Assembly (NCBI RefSeq): GCF_947490405.1
Contig: NZ_CANLGU010000001.1
Coordinates: 558,001-622,000 of the forward strand
DNA length: 64,000 nt
Direction: 5' to 3'
Origin: an uncultured Algibacter sp.
Lineage (GTDB): Bacteria; Bacteroidota; Bacteroidia; Flavobacteriales; Flavobacteriaceae
Below, piece after piece: positions 3,878-23,115 of this stretch (its first letter is position 1; every line of letters begins with the position of its first letter). The notes below the pieces were generated by a model. It saw only the letters and a program-made list of their open reading frames with translations, was not told the origin of the DNA and did no database searches. Position numbers and translations under genes: made by a program.

Positions 3878-3887
3878 CTTTTTTTTT

Positions 3888-6977: not shown

Positions 6978-7015
6978 AATTTAGTTTAGTTTAATTTAGT
7001 TTAATTTAGTTAGTC
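6978..7015. repeat. Short tandem repeat in the susC leader
   Basis: A TTTAGTTTAA-like unit is repeated about three times directly upstream of the susC start codon, leaving little room for a standard ribosome site. It lies within the expected 5' leader, since a -7-like element sits at 7063-7070. Confidence 0.6.
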
Positions 7016-7062
7016 TTATATTTTTTATGGTTGAAATACAAAAAACATAACACTCGAATTAT

Positions 7063-7070
7063 CAAATTTA
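7063..7070 (-). promoter_or_regulatory. Putative -7 element before susC
   Basis: On the minus strand this reads TAAATTTG, a full match to the Bacteroidota -7 consensus TAnnTTTG, about 85 bp before the susC start. No well-spaced -33 TTG is evident, so an activator may be needed, as usual for PULs. The assignment rests only on the motif. Confidence 0.4.
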
Positions 7071-7161
7071 ATTTTAATCTTAATTTTTTGTTAAGACAAT
7101 TGAAGCAACATTTAGTACTTTTTACGCAATACCTTGTTTTTATTGACTTTAAGCTTTGTTA

Positions 7162-8070: not shown

Positions 8071-8120
8071 GACATTCTAAACTTGTAATTGAAAAATAAA
8101 TAGTCATTTAATTGCCTCTA

Positions 8121-10760
8121 TTATTCTAGTATTACTTTTCCTTTTAAAACACTCGTGGTATGTGTATCAGCAACACCACTAAAACCTGGTTGCTTACCAC
8201 CAACACAAATTTCTAGAGTTCCCGCTTTGGCTTTAGAAGTGCCATCATTAGCAATTACCGCATATTGTTTTGGCGTAATCGTAAAACTTACTGCTTTAGT
8301 TTCGTTTGGTTTTAAATTAATACGCTGAAACCCTACTAAAGATCTTGTTGGACTTGTTTCACCAAGCTGCTGAGATATGTATAATTGTACGACTTCATCG
8401 CCTGCCATTTTACCAGAGTTAGTTACATCAACCTTTACGTTGATATCGTCATTTAAATTTGAACGCTGTGGCACATTAATATTTGAATATGAAAAGTTGG
8501 TATAACTCAAACCATGACCAAAAGGGAATAATGGATTGCCTTTAAAGTACCTATAAGTTCTATTTTCCATGTTGTAATTTTTAAAATCTGGCAAGTCGTT
8601 TACCGATTTGTAAAATGTAACTGGTAATCTTCCTGCTGGATTATAATCACCAAACAACACATCTGCTATTGCATTACCGCCAAATTCTCCAGGATACCAT
8701 GCTTCTAAAATTGCAGACACATTATCTGCAGCCCAATTTACTGCCAATGCACTACCATTCATTAAAACTAAAACGGTTGGTTTTCCTAGAGCTTGTATTT
8801 TTTTCATCAGCTCTATTTGCGTTTTAGGTAATGTAATTTCAGAACGATCACCTTTATCAAAACCTTCAAGTAATACTGGCATTTCTTCTCCTTCAATTGA
8901 TGGAGACAATCCTAAACACAATACAACAACCTCAGATTTTTTTGCAGCTTCTAATGCAGGAGTTATCAAATCTGCATCTGTTTTAGCCCATACTAATTGT
9001 GCTTGTGGATCTGCATGATAATTATAATATTCTATTTTTATAGTGTTTGATTCGCCTTTCTTTAATTTTACATCAAAATAGCGTGTTTTAGGCTCATGAT
9101 CGTCACTAAATTTAAAGCGTAATTCCTCGTTAAAATATAGTTTACCACCACTACTAGCTCTTAAACCAATACGGTACGTACCTGATGCTTTTGGCACTAA
9201 AGTTCCAGTCCATTTTACCGAAAACACATCTTTTTTAAGATTATCTACAGGTAAATTAGATACCCAATTAAAATCTACTGTTTTATCGTTTCTAGTAAAT
9301 TCTGGCTCACCTTTCCAATCTATAGTTTTAAAATATTCGCCTTTTAAGCCAGTATCATCTCCGTTTTTAAGCACATCTTCAGGAATAGGATTTAATGCAG
9401 GCCAACCCACAGCAATATCACTTCCTAAAGCGTAATGTACTTTAGCATTAGGCAGTTTATTTTGAATTGCTAATAAAGGTGTAAAATGATTTTTTGGCGT
9501 ACCATGATAATTACCTAATAATACTTGTTTAGAATTTGCATTAGGACCAATAACAGCAATAGACTTGATATTTTTATCTAACGGTAATACATTATTCTCA
9601 TTTTTCAATAAAACCATTGATTCTCTTGAGATTCTTTCAGATAAGTCGTAATGTGTTTTACTTACTACTACATCATACGGTATTTTTGACCATTTTACGT
9701 TTTCATCATCATCAAACATACCCAATTTAAAGCGCGCAATAAATAAACGAGATAGTGCTAAATCTACTTTACTCTCGTCTATAAGTTCTTTTAAAACAGC
9801 TTCTGATAAGTTAGGGTCGTAAACACTACCACAGTTTAAATCTGTACCTCTATCTACGGCTAAAGCTGCAGCTTCTTCGGGTGTTTCAACCAAATTATGT
9901 TTATTAGGTTCCCAAAAATCATTTATCGCCCAACAATCAGATACTACATAACCGCCAAATCCCCAATCATCTCTTAAAATTCTATTTAATAATAAATTGC
10001 TACCACAACACGCTTCATCTCTATACCTGTTATAAGCGCACATTACAGAATGTACTTTTGCTTCTTTTACAGCTGCTTCAAAAGCAGGCAAATAAGTTTC
10101 ATATAAATCTTTATTTGAAGTATGGTAATTATCTTCATGTCTAGATTTTTCAGGACCGCTATGTACAGCATAATGCTTTGCCGTAGCCACAACTTTTAAA
10201 TGCGTTTCATCATCACCTTGTAAGCCTTTAATATAATTAACACCTATTCTGCTAGTTAAATAAGGGTCTTCTCCATAAGTTTCTTGTCCTCTTCCCCAAC
10301 GCGGATCTCTAAAAATATTAATATTAGGTGTCCAAAATGTCAACCCTTGGTAAATACCTCTTTTTCCTTCAGATATGGCTTTATGATGTTTTGCACGTGC
10401 TTCATCTGAAACGACTTCACCCATTTTAAAAATTAGTGGTGCATTCCATGTAGCTCCCATACCTATACCTTGAGGAAAAACGGTAGCTTCTCCTGCTCTT
10501 GCTACACCATGCAAACACTCATTCCACCAGTTATATTCTGGCACGCCCAAACGCTCAATTGCTGGCGCATCATAACGCATTTGAGACACTTTTTCCTGAA
10601 GTGTCATTTCTCCGATTAAGTTTGCTACCCTATCTTCTAAAGCGTGTTCTGGATTTTGGAATTTGAATTTGTATTCTTTTTGTTCTGTTTTACAAGACAT
10701 AACAGATAATGCTATGATTAAAACACTAACATAAAACTTATACGTTTTTAGTCGATTCAT
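8121..10760 (-). CDS. Glycoside hydrolase family 3 exo-glycosidase with PA14 insert, lipoprotein
   Basis: 879 residues. Lipobox Cys23 (SVMSC) suggests membrane anchoring. The N-terminal TIM barrel carries the nucleophile Asp275 in YVVSDCWAIND and the substrate loop KHYAVHSGPE. The alpha/beta sandwich is interrupted at about residues 465-600 by a PA14 domain (GEYFK, then SGKLYFNEE-like strands), and a fibronectin-III-like domain closes the protein. The SDC(W/G)AI form groups with the beta-xylosidase-like branch of GH3, but PA14-containing members in laminarin loci act as beta-glucosidases, so either activity is possible. It would trim oligosaccharides released by the GH16 encoded next. Confidence 0.94.
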   Translation of the reverse strand: MNRLKTYKFYVSVLIIALSVMSCKTEQKEYKFKFQNPEHALEDRVANLIGEMTLQEKVSQMRYDAPAIERLGVPEYNWWNECLHGVARAGEATVFPQGIGMGATWNAPLIFKMGEVVSDEARAKHHKAISEGKRGIYQGLTFWTPNINIFRDPRWGRGQETYGEDPYLTSRIGVNYIKGLQGDDETHLKVVATAKHYAVHSGPEKSRHEDNYHTSNKDLYETYLPAFEAAVKEAKVHSVMCAYNRYRDEACCGSNLLLNRILRDDWGFGGYVVSDCWAINDFWEPNKHNLVETPEEAAALAVDRGTDLNCGSVYDPNLSEAVLKELIDESKVDLALSRLFIARFKLGMFDDDENVKWSKIPYDVVVSKTHYDLSERISRESMVLLKNENNVLPLDKNIKSIAVIGPNANSKQVLLGNYHGTPKNHFTPLLAIQNKLPNAKVHYALGSDIAVGWPALNPIPEDVLKNGDDTGLKGEYFKTIDWKGEPEFTRNDKTVDFNWVSNLPVDNLKKDVFSVKWTGTLVPKASGTYRIGLRASSGGKLYFNEELRFKFSDDHEPKTRYFDVKLKKGESNTIKIEYYNYHADPQAQLVWAKTDADLITPALEAAKKSEVVVLCLGLSPSIEGEEMPVLLEGFDKGDRSEITLPKTQIELMKKIQALGKPTVLVLMNGSALAVNWAADNVSAILEAWYPGEFGGNAIADVLFGDYNPAGRLPVTFYKSVNDLPDFKNYNMENRTYRYFKGNPLFPFGHGLSYTNFSYSNINVPQRSNLNDDINVKVDVTNSGKMAGDEVVQLYISQQLGETSPTRSLVGFQRINLKPNETKAVSFTITPKQYAVIANDGTSKAKAGTLEICVGGKQPGFSGVADTHTTSVLKGKVILE

Positions 10761-10798
10761 TTGAAATTTTGATTATAAATTGAGATTTGAATTTAAGA

Positions 10799-10870
10799 TT
10801 ACATTAAAAAAACAAAAAAGGCCAAAATCAATGCTATCAAGGTTACTATTAGCAAAAATTCCAAAAACAT
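10799..10870 (-). CDS. Possible 23-residue single-TM small protein in the GH3 leader
   Basis: An ATG-initiated ORF encodes an almost wholly hydrophobic peptide beginning MFLEFLLIVT and ending AFFVFLM. It lies 38 bp upstream of the GH3 start, about 30 bp after a TAGATTTG -7 element, with a purine-rich AAAGAAAAG just before the ATG. An in-frame GTG at 10897 would add a basic head but would coincide with the likely transcript start. It could be a genuine membrane microprotein or just AT-rich leader; there is no homology evidence. Confidence 0.25.
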   Translation of the reverse strand: MFLEFLLIVTLIALILAFFVFLM

Positions 10871-10902
10871 TCTTTTCTTTAAAGACTTGAAATCCACGAT
10901 AA

Positions 10903-10910
10903 CAAATCTA
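10903..10910 (-). promoter_or_regulatory. Putative promoter (-7 element) for the GH3-GH16 genes
   Basis: The minus strand reads TAGATTTG, an exact fit to TAnnTTTG, about 140 bp before the GH3 start in the 311-bp gap after the hybrid sensor gene. It is the plausible inducible promoter of the PUL operon. No -33 element at standard spacing is seen. Confidence 0.45.
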
Positions 10911-11071
10911 GATAAGGGTGTCAAAATTTATTGGTAAATCTTAAGCATTTGCTAAAACATTTGAAGCATAATACGTGAAATATGAATGTGTGCCTTGATT
11001 ATATTTAAAAATATACGAACATCTTTATTACTTAGAAATTTCTTTAACTAGTTGAACGAACAAAGAAACAA

Positions 11072-14000
11072 TCACTGGTTACTAACCTCTATAGAAGTAG
11101 GCAAAACACCATAATAATTTTTAAAACATTTTGTAAAATAAGAATGTGAAGAAAAACCAACTTTAAAAGATACTTCACCAACTGTAGCGCTTCCCAGTTC
11201 TAAGATTTGTTTTGCTTTTTGAAGCCTAATATTTCTTAAAAACTCGTTTGCAGTTTGATTAGTTAAAGCTTTTATTTTGCGGTAGAATTGACTTTTACTT
11301 AAGTTTAATTCAGATGCCAACACCTCAACATTTAGGTTCGGATCACTTATGTTTTCATTAATATAATTAAGTACTTTTTCAATAAACTCTTTATCAATAG
11401 ATGTTGTTTTAGTATTTTCAGGCAGCTCACTAATAACACTAAAGTATTTATTAAAGATTAATTTTCTACTTGTAATTAACTGTGCTAACCTAAGTTTTAG
11501 TAATCTTAAATTAAAGGGCTTTACCATATATGCATCTGCACCAAGTTCGATACCTTCCATTCTATTATCTATCCTTGCTTTTGCGGTAAGCATGAGCAAT
11601 GGTATGTGACTGGTTTTAATATCACTTTTTATGTTTTTACAAAATTCAAAGCCATCCATTTTTGGCATTATAACATCTGTTATTATAACATCTGGTAAAA
11701 TCTTGGTTGCTATCTCTAATCCTTCAAATCCATTTGCAGCTGTGTGAATTATATATTCACTTTTTAACTCTTCTTTTAAATAACTTTGAAGCTCTAAATT
11801 ATCTTCCACTATTAAAAGGGTATGATTTGTTTCTGTTTTCTCTGTTTGCTGTATACCTATATCTTGTTTTACATTTTTATCATCAACTTGTTCTTGGATA
11901 TAGGCTTCTTGTCTTTCTTTAATTTCTTGAACATCAGTAGTTAATTGATTTTCATTGAAATGAGATTTTCCTATTGGTAAGTGAATTTTAAAACTTGTTC
12001 CAGACCCTAATTTGCTATTAACATTTATAGTCCCTTTATGGAGTTCAACAAAACTTTTTACAACCTCTAATCCTATTCCAGTTCCTCCGTAGTATGTATT
12101 ATTTAAATTCCCTACTTGATAAAATCTATTAAAAATCTTATCAACTTCTTCTTCATCTATACCTGGACCCGAATCTGAAATAATAATTTCAGTGACATCA
12201 ATAAGGTTAAATTCATCAACTAAAGGCATAATGATTTTTTCTTCCTTTAGTTTAATCTCTACATTTATTAAACCTCCATTAGGCGTTATTTTCATAGCAT
12301 TTGACAGTAAATTAAAAATAATCTTTTCTAACATGCTACGGTCTGCCCATATGGTGATCTCTGGAGAGTCTGTATCTACCGATAATGATATATTTTTTGC
12401 TAATGCTTCCTCTTTAAAGTGAGACACTACGTTTTTCGTAAAATCTACTAAGTTAAATTTACTAGCTTTTATTCTAACTTTATTTAATTCAAGCTTTCTA
12501 AAATCTAAAAGTTCTGTAATTAACCTATGGAGCCTATCGGTGTTTTTATGAACCGTTTTAAGTTTAGTTTTTACAATATCAGGCACATTTAACTTTTTAT
12601 TATTCAAAATATCCTCAAGAGGATTTATTATTAAAGTTAAAGGTGTTCTAAATTCATGAGAAATATTAGTGAAGAATTGAAACTTTTTCTCGTTTAATAC
12701 TTCCTTTTGTTTTCTTGTTTCTCTTTCATAACTAATTAATTGTTTTTCTCTAATGCGTTCTTGAATTGTCTTATTCAAAAAATAAAGTATTAATAAAAAC
12801 AATGTTATATATGCAAATAAAGCTAAGTTTGTTTTCCACCAAGGTGGCAGAATTGTAATTGTTAAACTATTTGGGGTTTCATTCCAAACGCCATCATTAT
12901 TAGCTGCTTTTAGTTTAAAGGTATATGTACCATAATCTAAATTTGTATAAGTGGCATTTCTTGTATTTCCTACATAATTCCAATCATCTTCTAAACCCTC
13001 TAGGTAGTATGCAAATTGGTTCTTTTCTGGTCTTGTGTAATTTATGGCTGTAAATTCAATTGTAAAAACCGATTGTTTGTGAGTTAAAGTAATTTCTTTA
13101 GTTTCAGATATTACTCTATTTAAAGGTCCATTTTCTTTATCTGGGAACACTTTTTTATTAAACAGCTTAAAATCAGTTAAATAAACAGAAGGTAAATTTG
13201 TATTAGTTATTATGTTTTTAGGATTAAAATAGTCTACACCTTGATAATTACCAAAGTATAAGTTCCCTGTTTTATCCTTGTAAACCGAATTAATATTGTA
13301 ATCGTTTGATAACAAACCATCATTGTAGGTGAAATTTTTAAATTTCAAAGTTTCTGCATCATATTTATATAACCCAGAGTTACTACTTAACCATAAATCG
13401 CCATCATTACTTTCTATTATACCAGGAATATTTTCTCCAGAAAAACCATTTTGACTATCATACCAAGAAAAAGTTTCTTCATTAATATTAAATTCACAGA
13501 GCCCTGCTCCTCTTGTACCAATCCAAATCTTTTGATTATCCAAAGATTCGTAAAGTGTTAAAATATGACTTGATGTTAGGTAATTATTATACTTTTCAGC
13601 CATCTTATCAACATAAGATACCACGTGAAACTCATTATTAGCATCTTTTATTAATTTAAACAAGCCTTTAGTTGTGCCTACCCAAATGTTTTGTCTGGAA
13701 TCTATTAAAACTTTTCTAACATCTACTTCAGTTAAATCGCTTTCTACAAAGGGTTTTGAATCACATCTTTTAAATGTTTTATCATTATAACTAAAGGTAT
13801 GGAGCCCTTTAAAAAATGTTCCAATCCATATGGTGCCTTCTTCATCTTCATCAATACTTAAAATAGTATTAGAAGCTAGAGCTCCGTTGGTATTATTAGT
13901 GTTGTAATTAATAAACTGTTTTGACCCACTAGGCAAAAAGAATATACCATCATTCCAGCTACCGAGCCAGATATTATTTTTACTATCTATAAAAGCACAT

Positions 14001-15256
14001 TCAAGATAATCGTTAGTCAAACCTGAATATATGCTTTCATTTGTACTACTTACATGAATAAAACTTGATTTTTTTTCGTTGTACACATCAATACCACCTC
14101 CATCCATACTAATCCACAAATCACCTTTACCATCTTTAATGAGCCCTGTAACTGAAGGACTTGACAACGAGTTTTTATTATTTTTTACACTTTTAATGTG
14201 GTTAAATTTATCATACAAGTCATCATATATTCCAACACCACTATTGTAATATCCTATCCATACACGATTATCTTTATCTAAAAATAAAGACCATATAGAA
14301 TTCGATAACAAACTATTTTCTTTGTCTTTGTTGTACAAATATTTATTAAGTAATTTTCCATCAGAATCTAACTGTATAAGTCCATCATTCTCGCTTCCAC
14401 ATAGTATGGTACCATCTAGAAGTTTAATCAACGCAAATATTCTTTTATTGGTGATTTTAGAATTGATTACTCTATAACCAACCAAATCAGAATCTCTATT
14501 TTTTAGGCATATTAATCCGTTAGACTCTGTACCAATCCAAATGTCTTTATAATCAATTAAAATAGAATGTATAGGTTCAGTTATAGAAGAAATCTTACTG
14601 TTTATTTTAGAAAATACTAGTTCTTCTTTAGATGCATTATATTCTAATAAACCTAGGTTTGTTCCTGCAAATACTTTGCCTTCTGCATTGCATTCAAGTG
14701 CATAAATAATTAAATCAGAATTATTAATATCTGGAGTGCTAGGAGTTTTAGTAACCTGTAATGTTTTAAGATTTAATTTATAGAGTCCTGAATTATAAGT
14801 GCCAATAAATAAATTATCTTCATAATCACTACAAATACTTCTAACAGATAAGTTTTCTTCTTGTCCAGTATCTGCATTGTATATTGGAATTCTTGTAAAT
14901 TGATCTAAATCCCTGTTATATAAATTGAGTCCTTCCTCGGTACCAAACCATAATTTATTCTCCTGATCCAAATATGAGCAATAAACAAGACTACTACTTA
15001 TAGAAGTAGAATCTTTTAATGAGAGTTTATACTTAACATAATCCATCCCATCAAACCTGCTAACACCAGCCCCTGCAGTACCAAACCATATAAAACCATA
15101 ATGATCTTGAATAATAGTTGTTACCGCTAAATTTGACTCTCCTTTTTTTACATTGACAAAATCGAGTTTCTTTATTTGACCCTGAGAGTATCCACTAAAC
15201 CATAATAAAAAAAGACAAACACAAGTATTTAAAAACTTCATATTATTTTTAATCAA
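11072..15256 (-). CDS. Hybrid two-component system sensor/regulator (HTCS) of the PUL
   Basis: 1394 residues in one chain. A signal peptide (~1-25) precedes a periplasmic sensor made of two-bladed-propeller repeats (Reg_prop, e.g. GFIWFGTAGAGVSRFDG, residues ~45-690) and a Y_Y_Y domain (~700-790). One TM segment follows (~797-816). Inside the cell come a HisKA domain with phospho-acceptor His867 (ISHEFRTPLT), a HATPase (NLLSNAMK, GGTGIGLEVV), a receiver with Asp1194 (IITDVIMPKMDG) and a C-terminal AraC-type HTH (~1290-1390). HTCS proteins sense an oligosaccharide in the periplasm and activate the adjacent PUL directly. It is the upstream-most gene of the cluster. Confidence 0.97.
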   Translation of the reverse strand: MIKNNMKFLNTCVCLFLLWFSGYSQGQIKKLDFVNVKKGESNLAVTTIIQDHYGFIWFGTAGAGVSRFDGMDYVKYKLSLKDSTSISSSLVYCSYLDQENKLWFGTEEGLNLYNRDLDQFTRIPIYNADTGQEENLSVRSICSDYEDNLFIGTYNSGLYKLNLKTLQVTKTPSTPDINNSDLIIYALECNAEGKVFAGTNLGLLEYNASKEELVFSKINSKISSITEPIHSILIDYKDIWIGTESNGLICLKNRDSDLVGYRVINSKITNKRIFALIKLLDGTILCGSENDGLIQLDSDGKLLNKYLYNKDKENSLLSNSIWSLFLDKDNRVWIGYYNSGVGIYDDLYDKFNHIKSVKNNKNSLSSPSVTGLIKDGKGDLWISMDGGGIDVYNEKKSSFIHVSSTNESIYSGLTNDYLECAFIDSKNNIWLGSWNDGIFFLPSGSKQFINYNTNNTNGALASNTILSIDEDEEGTIWIGTFFKGLHTFSYNDKTFKRCDSKPFVESDLTEVDVRKVLIDSRQNIWVGTTKGLFKLIKDANNEFHVVSYVDKMAEKYNNYLTSSHILTLYESLDNQKIWIGTRGAGLCEFNINEETFSWYDSQNGFSGENIPGIIESNDGDLWLSSNSGLYKYDAETLKFKNFTYNDGLLSNDYNINSVYKDKTGNLYFGNYQGVDYFNPKNIITNTNLPSVYLTDFKLFNKKVFPDKENGPLNRVISETKEITLTHKQSVFTIEFTAINYTRPEKNQFAYYLEGLEDDWNYVGNTRNATYTNLDYGTYTFKLKAANNDGVWNETPNSLTITILPPWWKTNLALFAYITLFLLILYFLNKTIQERIREKQLISYERETRKQKEVLNEKKFQFFTNISHEFRTPLTLIINPLEDILNNKKLNVPDIVKTKLKTVHKNTDRLHRLITELLDFRKLELNKVRIKASKFNLVDFTKNVVSHFKEEALAKNISLSVDTDSPEITIWADRSMLEKIIFNLLSNAMKITPNGGLINVEIKLKEEKIIMPLVDEFNLIDVTEIIISDSGPGIDEEEVDKIFNRFYQVGNLNNTYYGGTGIGLEVVKSFVELHKGTINVNSKLGSGTSFKIHLPIGKSHFNENQLTTDVQEIKERQEAYIQEQVDDKNVKQDIGIQQTEKTETNHTLLIVEDNLELQSYLKEELKSEYIIHTAANGFEGLEIATKILPDVIITDVIMPKMDGFEFCKNIKSDIKTSHIPLLMLTAKARIDNRMEGIELGADAYMVKPFNLRLLKLRLAQLITSRKLIFNKYFSVISELPENTKTTSIDKEFIEKVLNYINENISDPNLNVEVLASELNLSKSQFYRKIKALTNQTANEFLRNIRLQKAKQILELGSATVGEVSFKVGFSSHSYFTKCFKNYYGVLPTSIEVSNQ

Positions 15257-15559: not shown

Positions 15560-15600
15560 GGAAAAATCTACAATTCCTTAGGAATCATATCTATTTCAAG
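15560..15600 (+). promoter_or_regulatory. Redox-regulon box A (upstream of small ORF and CMD gene)
   Basis: One of five matching ~41-bp boxes. It has GAAAAATCTACAA, then GGAA, then TATTTCAAG in the same register as boxes at 17520, 18294, 21331 (minus) and 22673 (minus). Exactly 17 bp after the CAA comes CATCTTTG (15617-15624), a one-mismatch form of TAnnTTTG. The bipartite form abutting the -33 region fits an AraC-type activator; the regulator encoded at 16503-17345 is the obvious candidate. Confidence 0.75.
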
Positions 15601-15650
15601 AGGCGCTTCTCTAGCCCATCTTTGCAGTGTAATTAAAACACACTATTAAG

Positions 15651-15809
15651 ATGACAACATTTTTCAACATAATAAAATCACTTTTAAGTGCTTCACCTAA
15701 AAGTATTTCAAATAATATACAACAACAAATTATTAAGGGAAATTGTGATGACTCTCACGCATCTGGTGCGTATTGCTATTCAGAAAAACCCTTTATTTCA
15801 AATTTTTAA
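15651..15809 (+). CDS. Promoter-proximal 52-residue small protein with two cysteines
   Basis: The ORF starts MTTFFNIIKSLLSASPKS and ends in a segment with Cys32 and Cys42 (GNCDDSH, AYCYSEKP). It starts about 20 nt after the transcription start predicted from box A, the same leader length as the other genes with this box, and ends 24 bp before the CMD gene, so it is likely the first gene of that operon. No family is recognised. The ribosome site is weak (TTAAG). A redox-active or sensory peptide, or a leader peptide, are possibilities only. Confidence 0.5.
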   Translation: MTTFFNIIKSLLSASPKSISNNIQQQIIKGNCDDSHASGAYCYSEKPFISNF

Positions 15810-15833
15810 TAAACCATTTATAAAACAATTATT

Positions 15834-16382
15834 ATGATAACATTTAATGTTCCAACAAGAGAAGAAGTAAATACTACAAATCAAGCAATTTTTGACAGCT
15901 TAAAAAAAGCTGTAGGTTTTGTTCCTAACCTTTATGCAACTTACGCATATTCAGACAATGCACTTAAAAACTATCTTGACTTTGCTAATGCAAAAACATC
16001 TCTTAAAGCAAAAGAGAAAGAAGTTGTAAACTTAGCTGTAAGTGAAGTAAACCAATGTGAATACTGTTTATCTGCTCACACAGCTATTGGTAAAATGAAC
16101 GGGTTTACTGAAGACCAAATTTTAGATTTACGTACAGGTCAAGCACCATTTGACACAAAGTTAGATGCACTAGCAAAACTTGCAAAGAACATCACAGAAA
16201 ACCGTGGTAATACAGATGCTGCTATTCTAGAAAACTTTTTTGATGCGGGATGGACTAAAGAAAACCTAATAGACACAATAGCCTTAGTAGGAGATAAAAC
16301 CATCTCAAACTACATAAATAACACCACGAAAATCCCAGTTGATTTTCCCGTTGTGACACCTTTAGAAACTGCGCTTATTTAA
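15834..16382 (+). CDS. Carboxymuconolactone decarboxylase/AhpD-like peroxidase-related protein
   Basis: 182 residues with the AhpD/CMD signature ESxxNxCxYCxxxH seen as VNQCEYCLSAH, with Cys75, Cys78 and His82 as the proton-relay and thiol pair. The remaining helices (DQILDLR, DALAKLAKNI) fit the all-alpha CMD fold. Members with this CxxC act as alkylhydroperoxidase-type disulfide reductants rather than as decarboxylases. It follows redox-regulon box A and a 52-residue ORF, faces the AraC regulator convergently and ends with a strong terminator. Role in peroxide or electrophile detoxification is inferred from family and context. Confidence 0.93.
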   Translation: MITFNVPTREEVNTTNQAIFDSLKKAVGFVPNLYATYAYSDNALKNYLDFANAKTSLKAKEKEVVNLAVSEVNQCEYCLSAHTAIGKMNGFTEDQILDLRTGQAPFDTKLDALAKLAKNITENRGNTDAAILENFFDAGWTKENLIDTIALVGDKTISNYINNTTKIPVDFPVVTPLETALI

Positions 16383-16411
16383 TCCCTATAATGATGATGT
16401 AGTTTTGTTCT

Positions 16412-16443
16412 GAACAGCCCACAAAAGTGGGCTGTTCTTTTTT
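16412..16443 (+). terminator. Rho-independent terminator after the CMD gene
   Basis: A perfect 11-bp stem (GAACAGCCCAC / GTGGGCTGTTC) with AAAA loop and six T residues, 30 bp after the CMD stop. Confidence 0.93.
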
Positions 16444-16502
16444 AGTATCAAATTAAATGGGAGAGATGTAAGATTTATTTATATATAACCCTAATTATAA
16501 AA

Positions 16503-17345
16503 CTACAACGACTCTTTAAACTCCTTTTTAAACGTAGCAGGTGGTGATCCCACTTGGTTTTTAAAAAACTTAGAGAAATGTGCTGGTTCTGAAAAACCAA
16601 CTTCATAACCAATTTCTTCCGCAGTTTTATCAGAATAAAAAAGCAACCTTTTAGCTTCTAAAACAATACGTTCGTTTATAATTTTTAAAGGAGATTTATC
16701 ACCAGATTTTTTAAATAAATTAGATAGTGTTTTTGGCGACTTAAACAGCATATCAGCATAATCGGCAACTTGATGTTTTTCTCTAAAATGTTGCTCTACC
16801 AACAGATGGTATTGTCGTACCATATCATACTGAGGTTTAGGTATATCTTCTTCAGAATTCTCAATCTTAATTAATCGCGTTGCTTTAATAAGCAAACGCT
16901 TTAAAACCGTACGAAGCATTTCCCCTTGAATATGATCTTTTGTTTCAAACTCTTCTTTCAAAATAAGAAACATGGCTTCAAAATTAGCAACCTCCTTTTC
17001 GTTTAGCGTAATTACAGGTGGAAGTGAAGAACCAAAGAATAAAAATCCTTGACAGGATACTTCTGCATCGTGGTCGCGTATACAATAAAATTCACGATTA
17101 AAAATAAAAGCAGTAAGTCCTGCATCTTTTTCCATCTCCACAATATTAAGCGGCGTACAAAATGCAACTTGGTTCTTTTTAATTTGCAACCTATATCCAT
17201 CTACAATTATGGTTGTATCACTGTCTCTTGCCCAAAGTATTTTATATAATCCTTTTTTATCTAGTAGATTCATTGCTGGTCCACAGGTAAAATTGGTGAG
17301 GGTAAACAAACTCTCATCTTTTATACTTGAGTATTCTAATTTCAT
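16503..17345 (-). CDS. AraC-family transcriptional regulator (candidate master of the redox regulon)
   Basis: 280 residues. The N-terminal ~110 residues form a cupin-like sensing domain with four cysteines (Cys21, Cys63, Cys88, Cys98) and the stretch FYCIRDHDAEVSC. A helical linker follows, then a C-terminal AraC double HTH at about residues 180-278 (ADMLFKSPKTLSNLFKK and AEEIGYEVGFSEPAHFSKFFK). It sits among five promoters carrying the same long box, so it is the natural candidate to bind them. The conserved-looking cysteines make thiol sensing plausible, but neither binding nor sensing is shown by sequence. No copy of the box is seen at its own promoter. Confidence 0.92.
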   Translation of the reverse strand: MKLEYSSIKDESLFTLTNFTCGPAMNLLDKKGLYKILWARDSDTTIIVDGYRLQIKKNQVAFCTPLNIVEMEKDAGLTAFIFNREFYCIRDHDAEVSCQGFLFFGSSLPPVITLNEKEVANFEAMFLILKEEFETKDHIQGEMLRTVLKRLLIKATRLIKIENSEEDIPKPQYDMVRQYHLLVEQHFREKHQVADYADMLFKSPKTLSNLFKKSGDKSPLKIINERIVLEAKRLLFYSDKTAEEIGYEVGFSEPAHFSKFFKNQVGSPPATFKKEFKESL

Positions 17346-17519
17346 TATAATAGGCTGTTATAGTTAGGTCATAAATATAAAAAAAATTAAATCGCTTTAC
17401 ACTAATATATATTTATGCTAAACCTCATAGATACCACCACTATTTTTTAACATTTCACCATTAAAAAAACACCGTTTATATATTTTACTAGTGCTAATAC
17501 ATACTTTTTTACGTTGAAG

Positions 17520-17560
17520 TGAAAAATGTACAATTTTACAGGAACAACCTATATTTCAAA
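17520..17560 (+). promoter_or_regulatory. Redox-regulon box B with promoter (first SPW-like gene)
   Basis: GAAAAATGTACAA, AGGAA and TATTTCAAA in the shared register. Seventeen bp after the CAA comes TATATTTG at 17577-17584, a perfect -7 element, giving a leader of about 30 nt to the ATG at 17623. Confidence 0.78.
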
Positions 17561-17622
17561 CCCTTTATAACGAGGCTATATTTGTACTATCAATAATTAA
17601 TAACCATAAAAAAATAAAAATT

Positions 17623-17991
17623 ATGCAATTTATCACAAAAAAAATCCACTCGTATTTAGATTACCCAGTAGCAATCTCTTTAATGGTATTACCATTTGTA
17701 TTAGGCTTAGGCGAAACCAATCCTATTGCGTTTTACCTTTCGCTAATAGTAGGTATAGCTGCTCTAGGTTTAACTATTTTAACAGATCATCAAACTGGAT
17801 TACTACCTGTTATCTCGTACCGTTTACACTTATTAGTAGATAGTGCTGTAGCTGTATTGTTTGTAGTAGCGCCATTTATCTTTTCTTTTGAAGGACTTGA
17901 TGCTTATTTCTATTGGATTAACGGTGCTGCTGTACTATTGGTAGTGTCTTTACATAAAAACGAAGCGCAAAAGCCAGTTGCCTTAGTGTAG
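17623..17991 (+). CDS. SPW-repeat-like four-TM membrane protein, copy 1
   Basis: 122 residues with two tandem repeats. Each has two membrane helices, with VLPFVLGLG and VAPFIFSFEG at the positions where SPW-repeat proteins carry their Ser-Pro-Trp. The loop DHQTGLLPVISYR joins the halves. It is very similar to the next gene (18388-18735), including the promoter box, so the pair arose by tandem duplication of gene plus promoter. The function of SPW-like proteins is unknown; co-regulation with thiol-redox enzymes suggests a membrane role in that stress. Assignment to SPW (PF03779) is by pattern only. Confidence 0.85.
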   Translation: MQFITKKIHSYLDYPVAISLMVLPFVLGLGETNPIAFYLSLIVGIAALGLTILTDHQTGLLPVISYRLHLLVDSAVAVLFVVAPFIFSFEGLDAYFYWINGAAVLLVVSLHKNEAQKPVALV

Positions 17992-18009
17992 TAAACCACA
18001 ATATAAATA

Positions 18010-18057
18010 AAGCCTGTCCTCTTTAATCAATTAGTGATTTTAGAGGACAGGCTTTTT
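18010..18057 (+). terminator. Terminator after SPW-like copy 1
   Basis: Long hairpin with arms AAGCCTGTCCTCT and AGAGGACAGGCTT, extended by TTAATCA/TGATTT pairing, followed by a T run. The gap from 18058 to 18293 shows nothing else I can support. Confidence 0.9.
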
Positions 18058-18293
18058 TAATTTGATTCGTTTTATGAATGCTGTAGATACTTTAAAGCAT
18101 TTAGATAGTCAATTTAGATTATAGCATTCTTCAAAACGCCTTTTAATCAAGACATGTAAAAGGATTTTATTCTTAAAATTTATTTGTAATAAATCAAATG
18201 AATAACAACTTGTATTCTAAGCCCATATTACATCAAAAAAAGTAGAAATCAATACCATACAACTTTGCTCTTACACACTATTCTACTTAAAAA

Positions 18294-18334
18294 TGAAAAA
18301 TGTATAATTAAACAGGAACAAACTGTATTTCAAA
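18294..18334 (+). promoter_or_regulatory. Redox-regulon box C with promoter (second SPW-like gene)
   Basis: GAAAAATGTATAA, AGGAA and TATTTCAAA in register with boxes A and B. TATCTTTG, a perfect -7 element, lies 17 bp after the CAA at 18351-18358; the ATG is 30 nt further. Confidence 0.78.
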
Positions 18335-18387
18335 TACTTAAGTGTTAATTTATCTTTGGACTATCAATAATCATAAAAAATAAAATT

Positions 18388-18735
18388 ATGCGATTTATCA
18401 CAAAAAAAATCCACTCGTACTTAGATTACCCAGTTGCAATTTCGTTAATAGTCTTACCCTTTTTATTAGGCCTAGGCGAAACCAATCCACTTGCGTTTTA
18501 CCTATCAATAATAGTTGGTATAGCGGCCTTTGGACTAACCATTGTAACAGATCATCAAACAGGATTCCTCCCAATTATTTCGTACCGCTCGCACTTATTA
18601 GTAGATGGTGCAGTAGCCGTATTATTTTTAGTAGCGCCATTTATCTTTTCTTTTGAAGGACTTGATGCTTACTTCTATTGGATTAATGGTGTGGCTGTAC
18701 TTATAGTAGTTGCGCTTCACAAAGCTGAAGCTTAA
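18388..18735 (+). CDS. SPW-repeat-like four-TM membrane protein, copy 2
   Basis: 115 residues, nearly the same as copy 1 through the four membrane helices (for example FITKKIHSYLDYPVAISL is shared exactly), and lacking the last few residues. Two internal repeats with LPFLLGLG and APFIFSFEG are visible. It has its own regulon box and its own terminator, so the two copies are separate transcription units. Synonymous differences are frequent, so the duplication is not very recent and both copies look to be under selection. Confidence 0.85.
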   Translation: MRFITKKIHSYLDYPVAISLIVLPFLLGLGETNPLAFYLSIIVGIAAFGLTIVTDHQTGFLPIISYRSHLLVDGAVAVLFLVAPFIFSFEGLDAYFYWINGVAVLIVVALHKAEA

Positions 18736-18760
18736 GTACAACAAACCTTCAGTAAAATAT

Positions 18761-18806
18761 AGCCTATTGTTTAGAATCGCTAATGATTTTAAACAATAGG
18801 CTTTTT
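18761..18806 (+). terminator. Terminator after SPW-like copy 2
   Basis: Arms AGCCTATTGTTT and AAACAATAGGCT with a T tail, closing the second SPW-like unit. Confidence 0.88.
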
Positions 18807-18902
18807 AAATTTTAATTTCTAGATATAACGCTTCTTTTTCTAAGAAACAGTTAATATGTTTATTCTTTAACGCATAATATAATGGTTTTATGTAGTCGTT
18901 AA

Positions 18903-19061
18903 ACTAACAATTATGACGCCTTAAAAAAGCATAAAGCAGTTTATAAAACTCTAAAAACAACTTCAGACATAGGCTTCTATATCATTCAAAATTTTGTGAA
19001 TATATTTAAAGTTCTAAAAACAATTTTAAGTGCATCAAACCCAAAGCTTGAAGATGGATAA
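18903..19061 (+). pseudogene. Startless 52-codon reading frame, possible remnant
   Basis: An open frame between stops encodes a plausible peptide with KTLKTTSDIGFYII and FKVLKTILSASNPKLEDG, but no ATG precedes it; a GTG inside would give only 21 residues. The ILSASNPK segment resembles LLSASPKS in the 52-residue ORF at 15651, so it may be a decayed relative. The remaining 18807-19275 sequence has no gene. Weakly supported. Confidence 0.25.
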
Positions 19062-19275
19062 TACGTTTTAAACTTAAAACATTTCTCCATTTCACTTTTT
19101 TATCAATTTAAATACATAATACCAAGTATATATTCCTTTTTATGAAGGCTTAAAATATGTTGACTTATTATCAAAACACAGAGAGTCTCAATTAATTACT
19201 AGAAATTAAATGACGATATAAATCGCTTGGTTTCAAAATGATGTTTATTTAAATAGCTTATGTTATAAACGCAAA

Positions 19276-19306
19276 AGAGGGACGAATTAAAATATTCGTC
19301 CCTTTA
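19276..19306. terminator. Symmetric terminator-like hairpin
   Basis: AGGGACGAAT / ATTCGTCCCT with a six-base loop, flanked by A and T runs so it could act on either strand. It lies about 165 bp past the end of the minus-strand thioredoxin reductase/DUF2721 operon. Confidence 0.6.
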
Positions 19307-19469
19307 ATATTATAAACTACACCTTCAGCTTACGAACCCTTGAAAAGACTTACTAATAGGCTAGTATTTAGAAGCTAAGGCTATATACTTTTTTTAGTAA
19401 AACTTATATTTCATATCAAGTTTCTCAAGATTAAAAAGATGCTTCTTTCTTTTAAAACTATAGAGGTAT

Positions 19470-19856
19470 TTAACACGTTTTATGGTACTGGTCTTGTCTT
19501 AATTTTACAGCTCTAAAAGAATATAACATCAAGCTTAAAAGTGCTAGAATTGCTACTAATATTCCCAAAAAGAGCACATAAATATCTCCTTTAAAATTCC
19601 AACCTACGTTTTCCTTTAGTCCAGAAAAGAGTGCTGAAAGCACAAAATTTACCACCGATAAATACAATAGTGCCATGGCACTGTTAATGAGTTTAAGTTG
19701 ATTTAGTTTGCGCTCAATTAAGGTGGAAGCATTCCCTTCATTTTCATTGATAAGCACTTTAATCTCCCTGCTCAAGTCTATCATAATATTTGAAGTTGAT
19801 AGAATGAGTAAACAAATACCTGGTAAAATGGTTATGGGTACGTACCACTCTTGCAT
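19470..19856 (-). CDS. DUF2721-like small membrane protein
   Basis: 128 residues with three predicted TM helices: ~8-26 (ILPGICLLILSTSNIMI), ~55-78 (AMALLYLSVVNFVLSAL) and ~92-116. A polar, charged stretch between the first two (LSREIKVLINENEG ... ERKLNQLK) fits the DUF2721 plan. It begins 3 bp after the stop of the Grx-Grx-thioredoxin reductase gene, so it is in that operon and under redox box D. Function of the family is unknown. Confidence 0.75.
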   Translation of the reverse strand: MQEWYVPITILPGICLLILSTSNIMIDLSREIKVLINENEGNASTLIERKLNQLKLINSAMALLYLSVVNFVLSALFSGLKENVGWNFKGDIYVLFLGILVAILALLSLMLYSFRAVKLRQDQYHKTC

Positions 19857-19859
19857 TGC

Positions 19860-21269
19860 TTAGTGCTTTAAGTAATCTTTAAGTCCATAGCTGGCAAGTA
19901 CGCCTTCACCAGTAGCTGCTGCCACTTGAGCTATAGCGCCCTCGCGACAATCGCCTGCTGCAAAAATGCCTTCAACAGATGTTTTAGCCAAGCCTGATGA
20001 GGTGATAAACCCTTGCTTATTTAGGTCTATTACGTTTTCAAAAACCTTTGTATTTGGAATTAATCCGATGAAAATAAACGTACCATCTCCCTCTATGAGT
20101 TCTTCTTCTCCTGTAGCGTTGTCTTTAACTTTTAACCCCACAAACTGGCCTTTATCATCAGAAATAAATTCTAAGGAAGTTTTATTCATATACGTTTGTA
20201 CATTATCCATTTTGGGTAGTTTCTCGGTATATGTAGGTGATGCCGTAAATGCTTCGGATCGGTGTACAATTTTCACTTTTTTAGCAAAGCTAGACAAGAA
20301 GATGCCCTCTTCTAGGGCGCTATTTCCTCCACCTACAACTACAACGGTTCTATCACGATAAAACGCACCATCACAGGTAGCACAAAAATGCACCCCAGAA
20401 CCTATTAATTCTTCCTCTCCAGGAATATGCAAACGTCTATAGGTTGAACCCGTAGCCGCCACAACACTGCGACCAATATAGGTCTCAGTAGCAGATTTCA
20501 CATAGAATTTATTATCCTTCTTTTCAATAGACTCCACATCAACTCCTGTGGCAATGGTTGCGCCGTAGGTACGTGCCTGTTCTTCCATTTTATCCATTAA
20601 ATCAGGACCAGAAATATTTGTAAATCCAGGGTAATTCTCAATAGTTTCCGTTAAAAAGGCATTACCTCCTATGGTTTTCTTTTCTAAAATGATGGTATCA
20701 AAACGATCGCGTTGCGCATAAATAGCAGTCGTTAATCCTGCGGCACCACCACCTATTATAATGGTATCATATACTTTGTGTTCTTTCTTCACATCAATGT
20801 TCAACAATGCTTTCAAGGTAGCATTATCAGGGTTAGTATGTGGTTTACCATCAATTAAAATAGTAGGTATAATACGTTTTCCGTTATTGATTGTTTCAAC
20901 TGCGTTAGTTGCCCACTCGTGTTCATCTACATCTATAAATTGAAAATTAACACCATTATCTGCGAGGTAACTCTTTGCCCTGCGACAATCTGGACACCAG
21001 TCTGCCCCAAATAATTGTACCACGCCAGCATCATTAATACCTAAGGCATCTGCTAACTCTGCATTGTTTGGGTTGGTATATGTTGTTCCGTTTAAATCTA
21101 TGGTTGGGATAATACGCTTTCCGTTATTGATTGTTTCAACCAAACGTGTGGCACTTTTATCTAAATCTACATCAACAAAATCAAAGGGAACGTTGTTTTC
21201 TTTTAAGTATGCTTTTGCTCTTCGGCAATCTGGACACCAATCGGCGCCGTATAATTTTAATGTGTTCAT
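19860..21269 (-). CDS. Fusion of two glutaredoxin-like domains with a thioredoxin reductase
   Basis: 469 residues. Two tandem glutaredoxin/mycoredoxin-like domains occupy ~1-78 and ~83-158, each with GADWCPDCRRAK (Cys12/Cys15 and Cys92/Cys95) and a NNGKRIIPTI cis-Pro strand. From ~165 follows a complete low-molecular-weight thioredoxin reductase: FAD motif IIGGGAAGLT, redox pair CATC (Cys296/Cys299), NADPH motif VVGGGNSALEE and the closing GDCREGAIAQVAAATGEG. The reductase could thus reduce its own attached glutaredoxin-like domains, forming a self-contained NADPH-to-disulfide chain. It is preceded by redox box D and co-transcribed with a DUF2721-like gene. Confidence 0.95.
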   Translation of the reverse strand: MNTLKLYGADWCPDCRRAKAYLKENNVPFDFVDVDLDKSATRLVETINNGKRIIPTIDLNGTTYTNPNNAELADALGINDAGVVQLFGADWCPDCRRAKSYLADNGVNFQFIDVDEHEWATNAVETINNGKRIIPTILIDGKPHTNPDNATLKALLNIDVKKEHKVYDTIIIGGGAAGLTTAIYAQRDRFDTIILEKKTIGGNAFLTETIENYPGFTNISGPDLMDKMEEQARTYGATIATGVDVESIEKKDNKFYVKSATETYIGRSVVAATGSTYRRLHIPGEEELIGSGVHFCATCDGAFYRDRTVVVVGGGNSALEEGIFLSSFAKKVKIVHRSEAFTASPTYTEKLPKMDNVQTYMNKTSLEFISDDKGQFVGLKVKDNATGEEELIEGDGTFIFIGLIPNTKVFENVIDLNKQGFITSSGLAKTSVEGIFAAGDCREGAIAQVAAATGEGVLASYGLKDYLKH

Positions 21270-21330
21270 TTTTTTTGGTTTTTGTAGTTATGTTTTATTT
21301 ATAGTGCAAATATCGTAGTGTTGCACAGTT

Positions 21331-21371
21331 CTTGAAATATTGATATTTCCGAAGTGATTGTATATTTTTCC
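21331..21371 (-). promoter_or_regulatory. Redox-regulon box D with promoter (Grx-Grx-TrxR)
   Basis: On the minus strand GAAAAATATACAA, CGGAA and TATTTCAAG appear in the shared register. GATATTTG, one mismatch from TAnnTTTG, lies 17 bp after the CAA at 21307-21314; the ATG is at 21269. Confidence 0.75.
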
Positions 21372-21465
21372 TTTTTTCAAAAAAGTATACATTATGATAA
21401 CTTTAGAAAGTCCGTTAGTTAGTTAACGGACTTTTTACAATATTTCTACAAAACCTAGTTATTCC

Positions 21466-22464
21466 TTACTTATTATTTTTAATATCGATAATTTGTCTAA
21501 CCATTTGGTTTGTAAAGCCCCATTCGTTATCGTACCAGGTCATTACCTTTAATAAATCGCCATCTACCACACGCGTCATACTTAAATCAACTGTTGAAGC
21601 AAAAGGACTTTTTACAATATCAGATGATACTATGGGGTCGTATGTTGTATCGATAATGTCTTTATAGCGGTCTGTTTTTGCTTCTTCTTGTAAAATATTG
21701 TTTACTTCATCTACGGTAACATTTTTATCCATTACAAAAGTCATATCAGATAAAGAACCTACTGGTATAGGTACGCGAATGGCGATACCGTCAAATTTCC
21801 CTTCGTATTCAGGTAATGCTTTTGTGGTTGCAATAGCTGCTCCTGTACTGGTTGGAATAATATTTGCCGCCCCTGCACGCCCCATTCTAAAGTTCTTTTT
21901 ACTAGGGCCATCAACCGCAGCTTGCGAAGCAGTGTAAGCGTGCACCGTTGTCATAATAGCTTTTTTAACACCGAGTCTTCTTCCTAAAATCTCTACAATA
22001 GGGCTAATATTATTGGTAGTACAACTAGCGCAAGAAAATACTGAAGTATGTCCGGCTTCTGTATTTACACCATGAACAACAGTAGGCGCTTCTGCGCTTT
22101 TTGTAGGCGCTGAAATAATTACTGTTTTTGCTCCTGCCTTAATGTGTCGTTCTGCATCTTCATAACCTGTAAAAACACCCGTACTTTCTATAACTAGATC
22201 TACTTGATGTTCTTTCCAAGGCAGTTCTTCTGGGTTTCGTTCACTGTAAAATGGTATGGTTTTTCCATTTATTTCTAATGCCTTATTGGTGTGTGCTACT
22301 CTATGCTCATACCTACCATATACGGTATCGTAATTTAACAAATAGGCAACATTTTCAATATCTACGATATCATTTACAGCAACTATGTCTAGTTCTGGGT
22401 TTTCTAATATTACTTTGAGCGCAGCTCTCCCGATACGCCCCATTCCGTTAATTGCAATTTTCAT
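21466..22464 (-). CDS. Glyceraldehyde-3-phosphate dehydrogenase (type I), redox-regulon isoform
   Basis: 332 residues, full length. The Rossmann motif is INGMGRIGR, the catalytic Cys148 lies in SCASCTTN, and His175 in TTVHAYT. The region after the active site reads KNFRMGRAGAANIIP where most glycolytic enzymes have a W and GGR, so this looks like a divergent isoform rather than the main glycolytic copy. It is translationally coupled to a 53-residue ORF (TAATG overlap) and lies under redox box E. GAPDH is a classical thiol-oxidation target, so a stress-induced replacement isoform is a reasonable inference. Confidence 0.94.
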   Translation of the reverse strand: MKIAINGMGRIGRAALKVILENPELDIVAVNDIVDIENVAYLLNYDTVYGRYEHRVAHTNKALEINGKTIPFYSERNPEELPWKEHQVDLVIESTGVFTGYEDAERHIKAGAKTVIISAPTKSAEAPTVVHGVNTEAGHTSVFSCASCTTNNISPIVEILGRRLGVKKAIMTTVHAYTASQAAVDGPSKKNFRMGRAGAANIIPTSTGAAIATTKALPEYEGKFDGIAIRVPIPVGSLSDMTFVMDKNVTVDEVNNILQEEAKTDRYKDIIDTTYDPIVSSDIVKSPFASTVDLSMTRVVDGDLLKVMTWYDNEWGFTNQMVRQIIDIKNNK

Positions 22465-22625
22465 TATGCTTGTATTTTTGATGGTTTATTAATTTTATTT
22501 ATAGTATGCCTTGTCGTTTCTAAAAAACTAGCTATTCTAAATTTATCAGATAATAGCATATCATCTCCTGAAAGATTGAAAAGTACATTTTCCATTATAT
22601 TTGATGTGTCATTTGTGTAGTTCAT
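22464..22625 (-). CDS. 53-residue small protein coupled to GAPDH
   Basis: The ORF starts MNYTNDTSNIMENVLFNLSG and ends NKPSKIQA; its TAA shares the A of the GAPDH ATG (TAATG), indicating translational coupling. It starts roughly 20 nt after the transcript start predicted from box E, the same leader length as other genes of the set. There are no cysteines, no membrane segment and no family I recognise. It may be a leader ORF needed for GAPDH expression. Confidence 0.55.
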   Translation of the reverse strand: MNYTNDTSNIMENVLFNLSGDDMLLSDKFRIASFLETTRHTINKINKPSKIQA

Positions 22626-22672
22626 AAGTATCGTTTTTAATTATGGTGTAAAATTACTGCAGTTATAAAGAC

Positions 22673-22713
22673 TCTGAAATAGCAGTACTTCCGATATACT
22701 TATACATTTTTCC
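22673..22713 (-). promoter_or_regulatory. Redox-regulon box E with promoter (53-aa ORF and GAPDH)
   Basis: On the minus strand GAAAAATGTATAA, CGGAA and TATTTCAGA match the other boxes. The -7 is weaker here (TAATTTTA at 22648-22655), 18 bp after the box. From 22714 to 22982 I see no gene or clear element. Confidence 0.68.
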
Positions 22714-23006: not shown

Positions 23007-23033
23007 ACATTTACAATTTTATAATTGAAAAAG

Positions 23034-23115
23034 TGCGGGCGGGGAGACTCGAACTCCCACACCTCGCGGCACTAGATCCTAAGTCTAGCGTGTCTACCAA
23101 TTCCACCACGCCCGC
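23034..23115 (-). tRNA. tRNA-Leu (anticodon UAG)
   Basis: On the minus strand the acceptor arms GCGGGCG and CGCCCGC pair perfectly. The anticodon loop CTTAGGA within a CTAGA/TCTAG stem gives UAG. A long variable arm (GCCGCGAGGTG) and T-loop GTTCGAGTC are present, as expected of a class II tRNA. CCA is not encoded. Confidence 0.97.

Follow-up and report, generated by a model that had tools for sequence, protein, structure and literature searches.

A 64-kb stretch of the 3.69-Mb genome of an uncultured Algibacter sp. (contig NZ_CANLGU010000001.1, positions 558,001-622,000; hereafter the window) carries, at 15.5-22.7 kb, an island whose genes probably form one regulon under the resident AraC-family protein encoded at 16503-17345, with oxidant-switched activation through tandem operators. 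The conserved AraC operator and its locally expanded redox regulon are real, and the island genes most likely serve as a single switchable defence set against chemical oxidants. As an AraC regulon the system is of a known kind; the sensor clade, the operator dialects, a small Cys-His peptide and the five-promoter island set it apart as a variant.

Operators and their linkage to the AraC family

The original prediction, made from the DNA letters alone, had placed five boxes at promoters of the island, with three words in one register. This was borne out: all 23 consensus positions of GAAAAATnTAyAA-N7-GGAA-N7-TATTTCA are present at each of the five places, and the next-best scores in the window are 18 (box 1, opposite strand) and 17. 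With gaps allowed to flex from 5 to 9, the strict pattern gave five matches in the whole genome, which are the five boxes, and none in the reversed control. Adding the -7 element and admitting up to three mismatches gave seven sites (one in the reversed control): the five boxes plus G000:C1:888116 and 888385, which adjoin a paralogous AraC gene. Matches are thus confined to the island and this sister AraC locus rather than lying at random genomic places.

Some points of the prediction needed revision. The supposed single 41-bp word is in fact two direct-repeat half-sites 21 bp apart; and a fixed distance to a TAnnTTTG-type -7 element, claimed for four boxes, holds for all five as to spacing—exactly 22 nt lie between the 38-bp core and TTTG or TTTA—but not as to type, since TAnnTTTG is complete in only two (17577 and 18351) and the others read CATCTTTG, GATATTTG and TAATTTTA. 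TAnnTTTG is described as the flavobacterial sigma-A -7 element in the available part of PMC9723704, and the window elements resemble that type. All five occurrences are present, but because the SPW gene unit with its promoter is a tandem duplication (window 17492-17945 and 18266-18710, 82% identity across 454 bp), boxes 2 and 3 are not independent and the independent occurrences number four.

A matrix built from the five window boxes alone was run over the best 80 of 123 orthologue loci (1.17 Mb). It gave 38 matches above 20 bits and 45 above 18 bits, compared with none and one, respectively, in the reversed sequence; density above 18 bits was 129.6 per Mb within 500 bp of araC versus 2.6 per Mb beyond 5 kb. 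Among the 55 boxes that scored above 16 bits, 48 had TTTG or TTTAC exactly 22 nt further on, although this distance plays no part in the matrix. Anchoring matches on the -7 element gave 70 above 10 bits in 54 of the 80 loci (reversed, none), and in an offset test at the same threshold there were 72 matches at the right offset versus 0 to 5 at each of 16 wrong ones. The autocorrelation of 44 non-redundant boxes, a set chosen with the -7 anchor and including the five window boxes, was positive at 21 bp only, among distances of 5 to 29. The half-sites, GGAAAAATvTAyAAT and GGAAnAAyCTAyATTT, are thus a direct repeat with a 21-bp period, and the second ends close to the position of the -33 element. 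Judged from these letters, the 21-bp repeat and the fixed -7 distance are the layout expected of an AraC-family dimer site, and two direct half-sites about 21 bp apart fit the AraC/XylS family; the AraC-type hybrid regulators of Bacteroides are likewise reported to have a mean half-site distance of 21 bp (PMC3878776, available part). Separately, an extracytoplasmic function (ECF)-type sigma promoter was ruled out, as GGAA sits 36 nt upstream of TTTG and not at the -35/-10 distance of ECF promoters.

Linkage was examined in 199 genomes of Flavobacteriaceae, drawn from a larger group and searched with the AraC protein and the operator. The box without its -7 anchor proved too weak as a probe (at three mismatches, 55 matches in 44 genomes versus ~37 reversed by hand count), and the anchored operator, at two mismatches or fewer, was therefore used. 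It gave 45 matches, spread over 25 genomes, against 5 in the reversed control. Of the 45, 44 had one of the 64 top AraC matches no further than 10 kb away, and 37 of these no further than 1 kb. Without the five window boxes the figure is 39 of 40, the exception being in G141; taking an estimated mean genome size, ~0.2% of the sequence lies within 10 kb of such an AraC gene. The predicted co-occurrence with AraC orthologues in relatives was thus found and, together with the non-random genomic places, supports the boxes as probable operators of the resident AraC protein. Several species occur both in this sample and in that of the named loci; the two are not independent.

The regulators fall into clades that we name A (the window's), B, C and D; in the 199-genome scan these labels follow AraC identities, not an all-member tree. 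Midpoint rooting gave no rooted clade A, and an unrooted split joins clade A with L015 and L016 at 0.86 support. At clade-A loci, with G120 included, all 12 sites have T at position 9, whereas 31 of 32 sites elsewhere have G, the sole T there being at G118:C1:1054956. The window genome holds both a clade-A regulator and a 47% identical paralogue (G000:C1:888459), each with its own site type beside it. The locus of the paralogue (L079, G000:C1:879001-899000) has two operators of its own, a 58-aa peptide, a protein of the CMD family (AhpD-like) and a cupredoxin. Clades B, C and D, whose operators were read directly from promoters, resemble the window system in having GG..A half-sites in the same register, CMD and peptide genes at loci of each clade, and the sensor motif FYCxxDHDxEVSC in 23 of 24 proteins examined. 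They differ in lacking Cys63, in having Cys21 aligned in the two clade-D proteins only, in their half-site letters (TTGACAA in B; GGAAATTTnTACAAG in C, read from a few promoters; TTGCCAA in D, read from a single promoter) and in having one or two promoters at peptide and CMD genes at the loci seen, as opposed to five in the window island. Comparative evidence thus shows an operator architecture, its fixed -7 distance, its linkage to this AraC family and its clade-specific letters.

Several observations weigh against this reading. The converse linkage is weaker: of 53 genomes in which one of the 64 AraC genes is present, 24 have a match, and the other site letters of clades C and D may explain part of what is missing. 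An anchored site above 10 bits is absent from 26 of the 80 orthologue loci and one above 8 bits from 20, among which are 8 of the 12 loci named Nonlabens; at two mismatches, four of nine clade-A genomes (G010, G026, G059, G176) have no site. The -7 columns of the 44-box profile are required by construction, and at non-clade-A sites the best repeat distance is 21 bp, yet the autocorrelation is below zero (-0.18). Because the orthologues were collected with a search pattern that included the Cys88 motif, the invariance of this motif is in part a product of that choice; C88 and C98 are, besides, present in 23 of 24 further family members. Genes for fusions of glutaredoxin (Grx) and thioredoxin reductase (TrxR) domains that lie far from araC have no operator in G059 and a weak one (6.7 bits) in G077. 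A genome-wide regulon, sought with the anchored pattern at up to three mismatches, yielded no site beyond the island and the sister locus, so the predicted 'regulon' stands as a local set but not in the genome-wide sense. Finally, clade-A-type sites occur in just one of ten genomes of the genus (two others have paralogue-type sites), because of which the island looks accessory; a related island is also held at L085 and L086.

Regulator, peptide and target genes

The C-terminal double helix-turn-helix region (HTH_18) of the regulator scores 69.7 bits (cut-off 33.6), which places the protein in the AraC/XylS family. In its AlphaFold2 model (mean pLDDT 84.7) a β-strand N-terminal domain precedes a helical C-terminal domain; the lowest block mean, 55, is that of residues 91-100, which include Cys98. 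Foldseek with this model found ToxT and Rns over the whole length (TM-score 0.35-0.43) and the regulatory domains of AraC and RhaR (target TM-score 0.53-0.60), so the N-terminal part is predicted, at fold level only, to be an AraC-type sensor and dimerization domain. The four predicted cysteines were found at positions 21, 63, 88 and 98, the last two within FYCxxDHDxEVSC. Across 56 aligned orthologues Cys21, Cys88 and Cys98 are kept in all and Cys63 in 53, and His92 is substituted in seven; the 24 other family members have Asp93 in 23, Cys21 in four and Cys63 in two. The L015 (G120) homologue has Cys88, Asp93 and Cys98 replaced and Cys21 and Cys63 kept.

In the window, operator 1 precedes the 52-aa peptide and AhpD-like genes, operator 2 SPW1, operator 3 SPW2, operator 4 the Grx-Grx-TrxR fusion and DUF2721 genes, and operator 5 a 53-aa open reading frame (ORF) and a GAPDH gene (Table 1). 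These gene calls agree with the original prediction: an AhpD-like CMD protein, an AraC protein with HTH_18, two SPW proteins, DUF2721, Grx-Grx-TrxR and GAPDH. The AhpD-like protein contains CEYCLSAH and exceeds the cut-offs of PF02627 (55.5 versus 23 bits) and ahpD_dom (50.9 versus 27.8), and falls below that of the TIGR01926 peroxidase-related enzyme model (58.9 versus 81.8). One SPW protein is slightly over the Pfam cut-off and the other slightly under. The 53-aa ORF matched no family in Pfam or NCBIfam. An arsenic island was considered on account of the GAPDH gene and rejected, the ArsJ-associated GAPDH (arsenate resistance) model scoring 306.5 bits, under its curated cut-off of 450.

Table 1. 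Operators and genes of the island (window positions)
Feature	Position	Strand	Details
Operator 1	15560..15596	+	Half-sites 15560-15575, 15581-15596; -7 element CATCTTTG 15617-15624
52-aa Cys-His peptide ORF	15651..15809	+	Divergent member of the SIFNLIEIF...HCEQ..HHDFYCDAE family
AhpD-like protein, CMD family	15834..16382	+	CxxCxxxH; from family profiles
AraC-family regulator	16503..17345	-	Predicted β-strand N domain and HTH_18; Cys 21, 63, 88, 98
Operator 2	17520..17556	+	Half-sites 17520-17535, 17541-17556; -7 element TATATTTG 17577-17584; between araC and SPW1
SPW-type membrane protein 1 (SPW1)	17623..17991	+	From Pfam
Operator 3	18294..18330	+	Half-sites 18294-18309, 18315-18330; -7 element TATCTTTG 18351-18358; in tandem duplication of SPW1 unit
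SPW-type membrane protein 2 (SPW2)	18388..18735	+	99 of 115 residues identical to SPW1
DUF2721 protein	19470..19856	-	Starts 3 bp past the fusion gene
Grx-Grx-TrxR fusion	19860..21269	-	CPDC in each of two Grx domains
Operator 4	21335..21371	-	Half-sites 21356-21371, 21335-21350; -7 element GATATTTG 21307-21314
Type I GAPDH paralogue	21466..22464	-	The genome yielded four GAPDH homologues, this one included
53-aa ORF	22464..22625	-	1-base overlap with GAPDH start
Operator 5	22677..22713	-	Half-sites 22698-22713, 22677-22692; -7 element TAATTTTA 22649-22656

The 52-aa ORF of the prediction turned out to belong to a conserved family. At loci of clades A to D an ORF of ~50 codons, SIFNLIEIF...HCEQ.HHDFYCDAE, lies between operator and CMD gene; members with the Cys...H-D-x-Y-C motif are found at window 15651-15809, at L079:9182-9358 and in L081, L091, L092, L094 and others, and the window copy has no match among Pfam or NCBIfam models. 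Between peptide pairs of at least 55% identity, which leave out the window copy and share sequences and so are not independent, there are 296, 227 and 516 differences at codon positions 1, 2 and 3, respectively, and 297 of the 693 codon changes leave the amino acid unaltered; this pattern speaks for translation. Of 15 clade-A operators ahead of CMD genes, eight lie 224 to 406 bp and seven 54 to 85 bp from the CMD start, and the peptide occurs in seven of the long intervals and none of the short ones. The long interval without it is that of L088, where a family member was sought and none found.

In relatives, 49 anchored boxes were assigned 99 genes in 35 clusters, with up to four genes per box and by a spacing rule only. 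Among them are CMD (15), a 118-aa SnoaL-like protein (13, the representative being under the Pfam cut-off), P460-like proteins (6, in three loci), Grx-Grx-TrxR (5), cupredoxin (5), a second AraC (5, in four loci), SPW (4), MsrB (3), MsrA (3), DUF2721 (3) and haem-binding proteins (3); the rest are single genes without an evident redox role. That the same operator in relatives also heads genes for MsrA, MsrB and the TrxR fusion strengthens the predicted redox character of the set; L151 and L153 each have a single operator ahead of MsrB, MsrA and, further down, the fusion. MsrB-MsrA pairs behind a clade-A operator lie at L151:13179-16252, L153:2436 onward and L127:13791 onward. The fusion is found in eight of the 199 genomes (the G158 copy cut by a contig end; G120 has the second half only), and five of the eight carriers are among the nine genomes with an AraC protein of at least 54% identity (hypergeometric P 2.7e-6, kinship ignored).

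Near position 8850 in L127, L132, L138 and L150, an operator right after araC is followed by a second AraC gene, suggesting a possible cascade; in L132, L138 and L150 a 116-129-aa protein and P460-like genes come next (Pfam was run on L132 only). In L086 the CMD gene appears interrupted (3749-4410) while the AraC gene is open, and a tRNA-Val gene (4567-4642) lies beside the CMD end. A tRNA gene, for leucine, also lies directly right of the window island, at 23033-23115, and the composition profile of the region shows no sharp island border. To the left (window 2378-15256) is what we take, from its translations, to be a SusCD-type polysaccharide locus that includes a hybrid two-component regulator of 1394 aa.

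Proposed mechanism and alternatives

The trigger would be a strong thiol oxidant (hypohalous acid, or an electrophile or peroxide of similar kind) that attacks cysteines of the sensor domain, C21, C63 and C88/C98 being the likely sensor. A dimer would then occupy two half-sites spaced by 21 bp along the same side of the helix, an architecture seen at all five promoters, with the downstream half-site reaching the -33 position of a sigma-A promoter; from this geometry, the bound dimer would replace a weak -33 element and so activate the promoter. That the protein binds these sites, activates instead of repressing, and senses this kind of oxidant through its cysteines is what we infer. The induced set would comprise the AhpD-like peroxidase, the Cys-His peptide, the self-contained Grx/TrxR fusion, the small membrane proteins and the spare GAPDH, which may substitute for an oxidant-sensitive one. 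Going by their families, the AhpD-like, glutaredoxin and thioredoxin-reductase activities would repair damage, joined by MsrA and MsrB in relatives.

The same operator and regulator might instead answer to another signal, the C-x9-C pair with Asp and His binding a metal, haem or nitric oxide, as in copper or nitrosative stress. The conserved Cys/Asp/His/Asp/Cys of the sensor would suit such a site; CMD has a cupredoxin as neighbour at this genome's clade-B locus and at some of the clade-A loci, and haem-binding and cytochrome P460 proteins lie behind some clade-A operators. None of the nine window ORFs scanned, however, matches cupredoxin, P460, haem-binding or metal-transport families above the Pfam cut-off; besides SPW, DUF2721 and GAPDH, the recognizable ones are thiol-redox proteins, and His92 is replaced in seven of the 56 clade-A proteins. 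On balance we consider such a signal unlikely. That the boxes are read mainly by another factor, such as the paralogous AraC protein at G000:C1:888459, with the resident protein a bystander, seems improbable: the operators of the two 47% identical regulators do share GAAAAAT and GGAA in one register, but the letter at position 9 follows the clade of the adjacent regulator, and the G118 site is the only one of the 32 at other loci with the clade-A letter.

The single distance between box and -7 element could also mark the promoter of a particular sigma factor or a transcribed RNA element, with no activator operator involved. The core stops 18 nt before the -7 element and is therefore not transcribed from that promoter; the 21-bp repeat is tied to one AraC family and not spread across the genome, and the -7 element resembles the usual sigma-A type (PMC9723704, available part), all of which makes this idea highly improbable. 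We give even less credence to recent, functionless duplication of DNA as the source of the five copies. Boxes 2 and 3 do lie in a tandem duplication, and 41 of the 66 bases downstream are identical between boxes 2 and 4. Upstream, however, boxes 1, 2, 4 and 5 share pairwise only 13-18 of 40 bases (~11 expected from base composition by our own arithmetic), versus 26-29 of 38 within the box, and the box recurs across genera at orthologue loci. For four of the five boxes, duplication is largely refuted.

Relation to known systems

The original prediction knew of no named system of this kind. Literature searches matched neither the gene set nor the operator, but close working analogues exist in E. 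coli RclR-RclABC (PMC7464077) and P. aeruginosa RclR-RclX (PMC7950407), as far as the available parts of these papers describe them. On this operator or gene set, nothing was found among openly licensed PMC papers; PMC10434189, in its available part, is not about it. P. aeruginosa RclR is described as an AraC-family regulator of the response to HOCl and HOSCN that controls the AhpD-like CMD protein RclX (PMC7950407), and the window island has the same arrangement of an AraC-family regulator adjoining, and here presumably controlling, a CxxC CMD protein in oxidant defence. Compared by description rather than by sequence, the tandem 21-bp repeat, the Cys-His peptide, the Grx-Grx-TrxR fusion and GAPDH go unmentioned in the available part of that account (PMC7950407).

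E. coli RclR is described as an AraC-family activator that senses via Cys21 and Cys89, and its regulon, like the island, has a flavoprotein disulfide reductase, a small protein and a membrane protein (PMC7464077, available part). Cys21 and Cys88 of the window regulator have similar numbers, but the sensor domains failed to align: the profile alignment covers the HTH region and the BLAST alignment the C-terminal part only, so the two are not whole-length orthologues. Nor does the TrxR fusion significantly match RclA (best E 0.36), and where E. coli has DUF417 the window has SPW and DUF2721. The AraC-type hybrid two-component regulators of Bacteroides share direct-repeat operators ~21 bp apart, but combine a periplasmic sensor and a kinase for sugars (PMC3878776, available part), unlike the soluble, cysteine-bearing one-component regulator of the window. 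The system is thus best read as a Bacteroidota counterpart of RclR-type thiol-oxidant regulation that would work like RclR without being its orthologue.

To our knowledge, thiol-oxidant regulation besides OxyR has scarcely been mapped in Bacteroidota. Many of the named relatives belong to marine genera, for which algal haloperoxidases are a plausible source of oxidant. A wider proposal, whose chances we rate somewhat short of even, is that paralogous cysteine-sensing AraC regulators make up a widespread, undescribed oxidant-sensing system of Bacteroidota, in which one operator architecture with private letters would run two separate redox regulons per cell, and the previously unannotated ~50-aa Cys-His peptide would be a working part beside the AhpD-like protein. 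As the operator, the regulator family and the target promoters can be stated exactly, such regulons become annotatable across Flavobacteriaceae; and since one genome naturally contains two paralogues whose sites are told apart by a defined position, specificity can be tested directly, as can the sensing cysteines and what the conserved peptide does.

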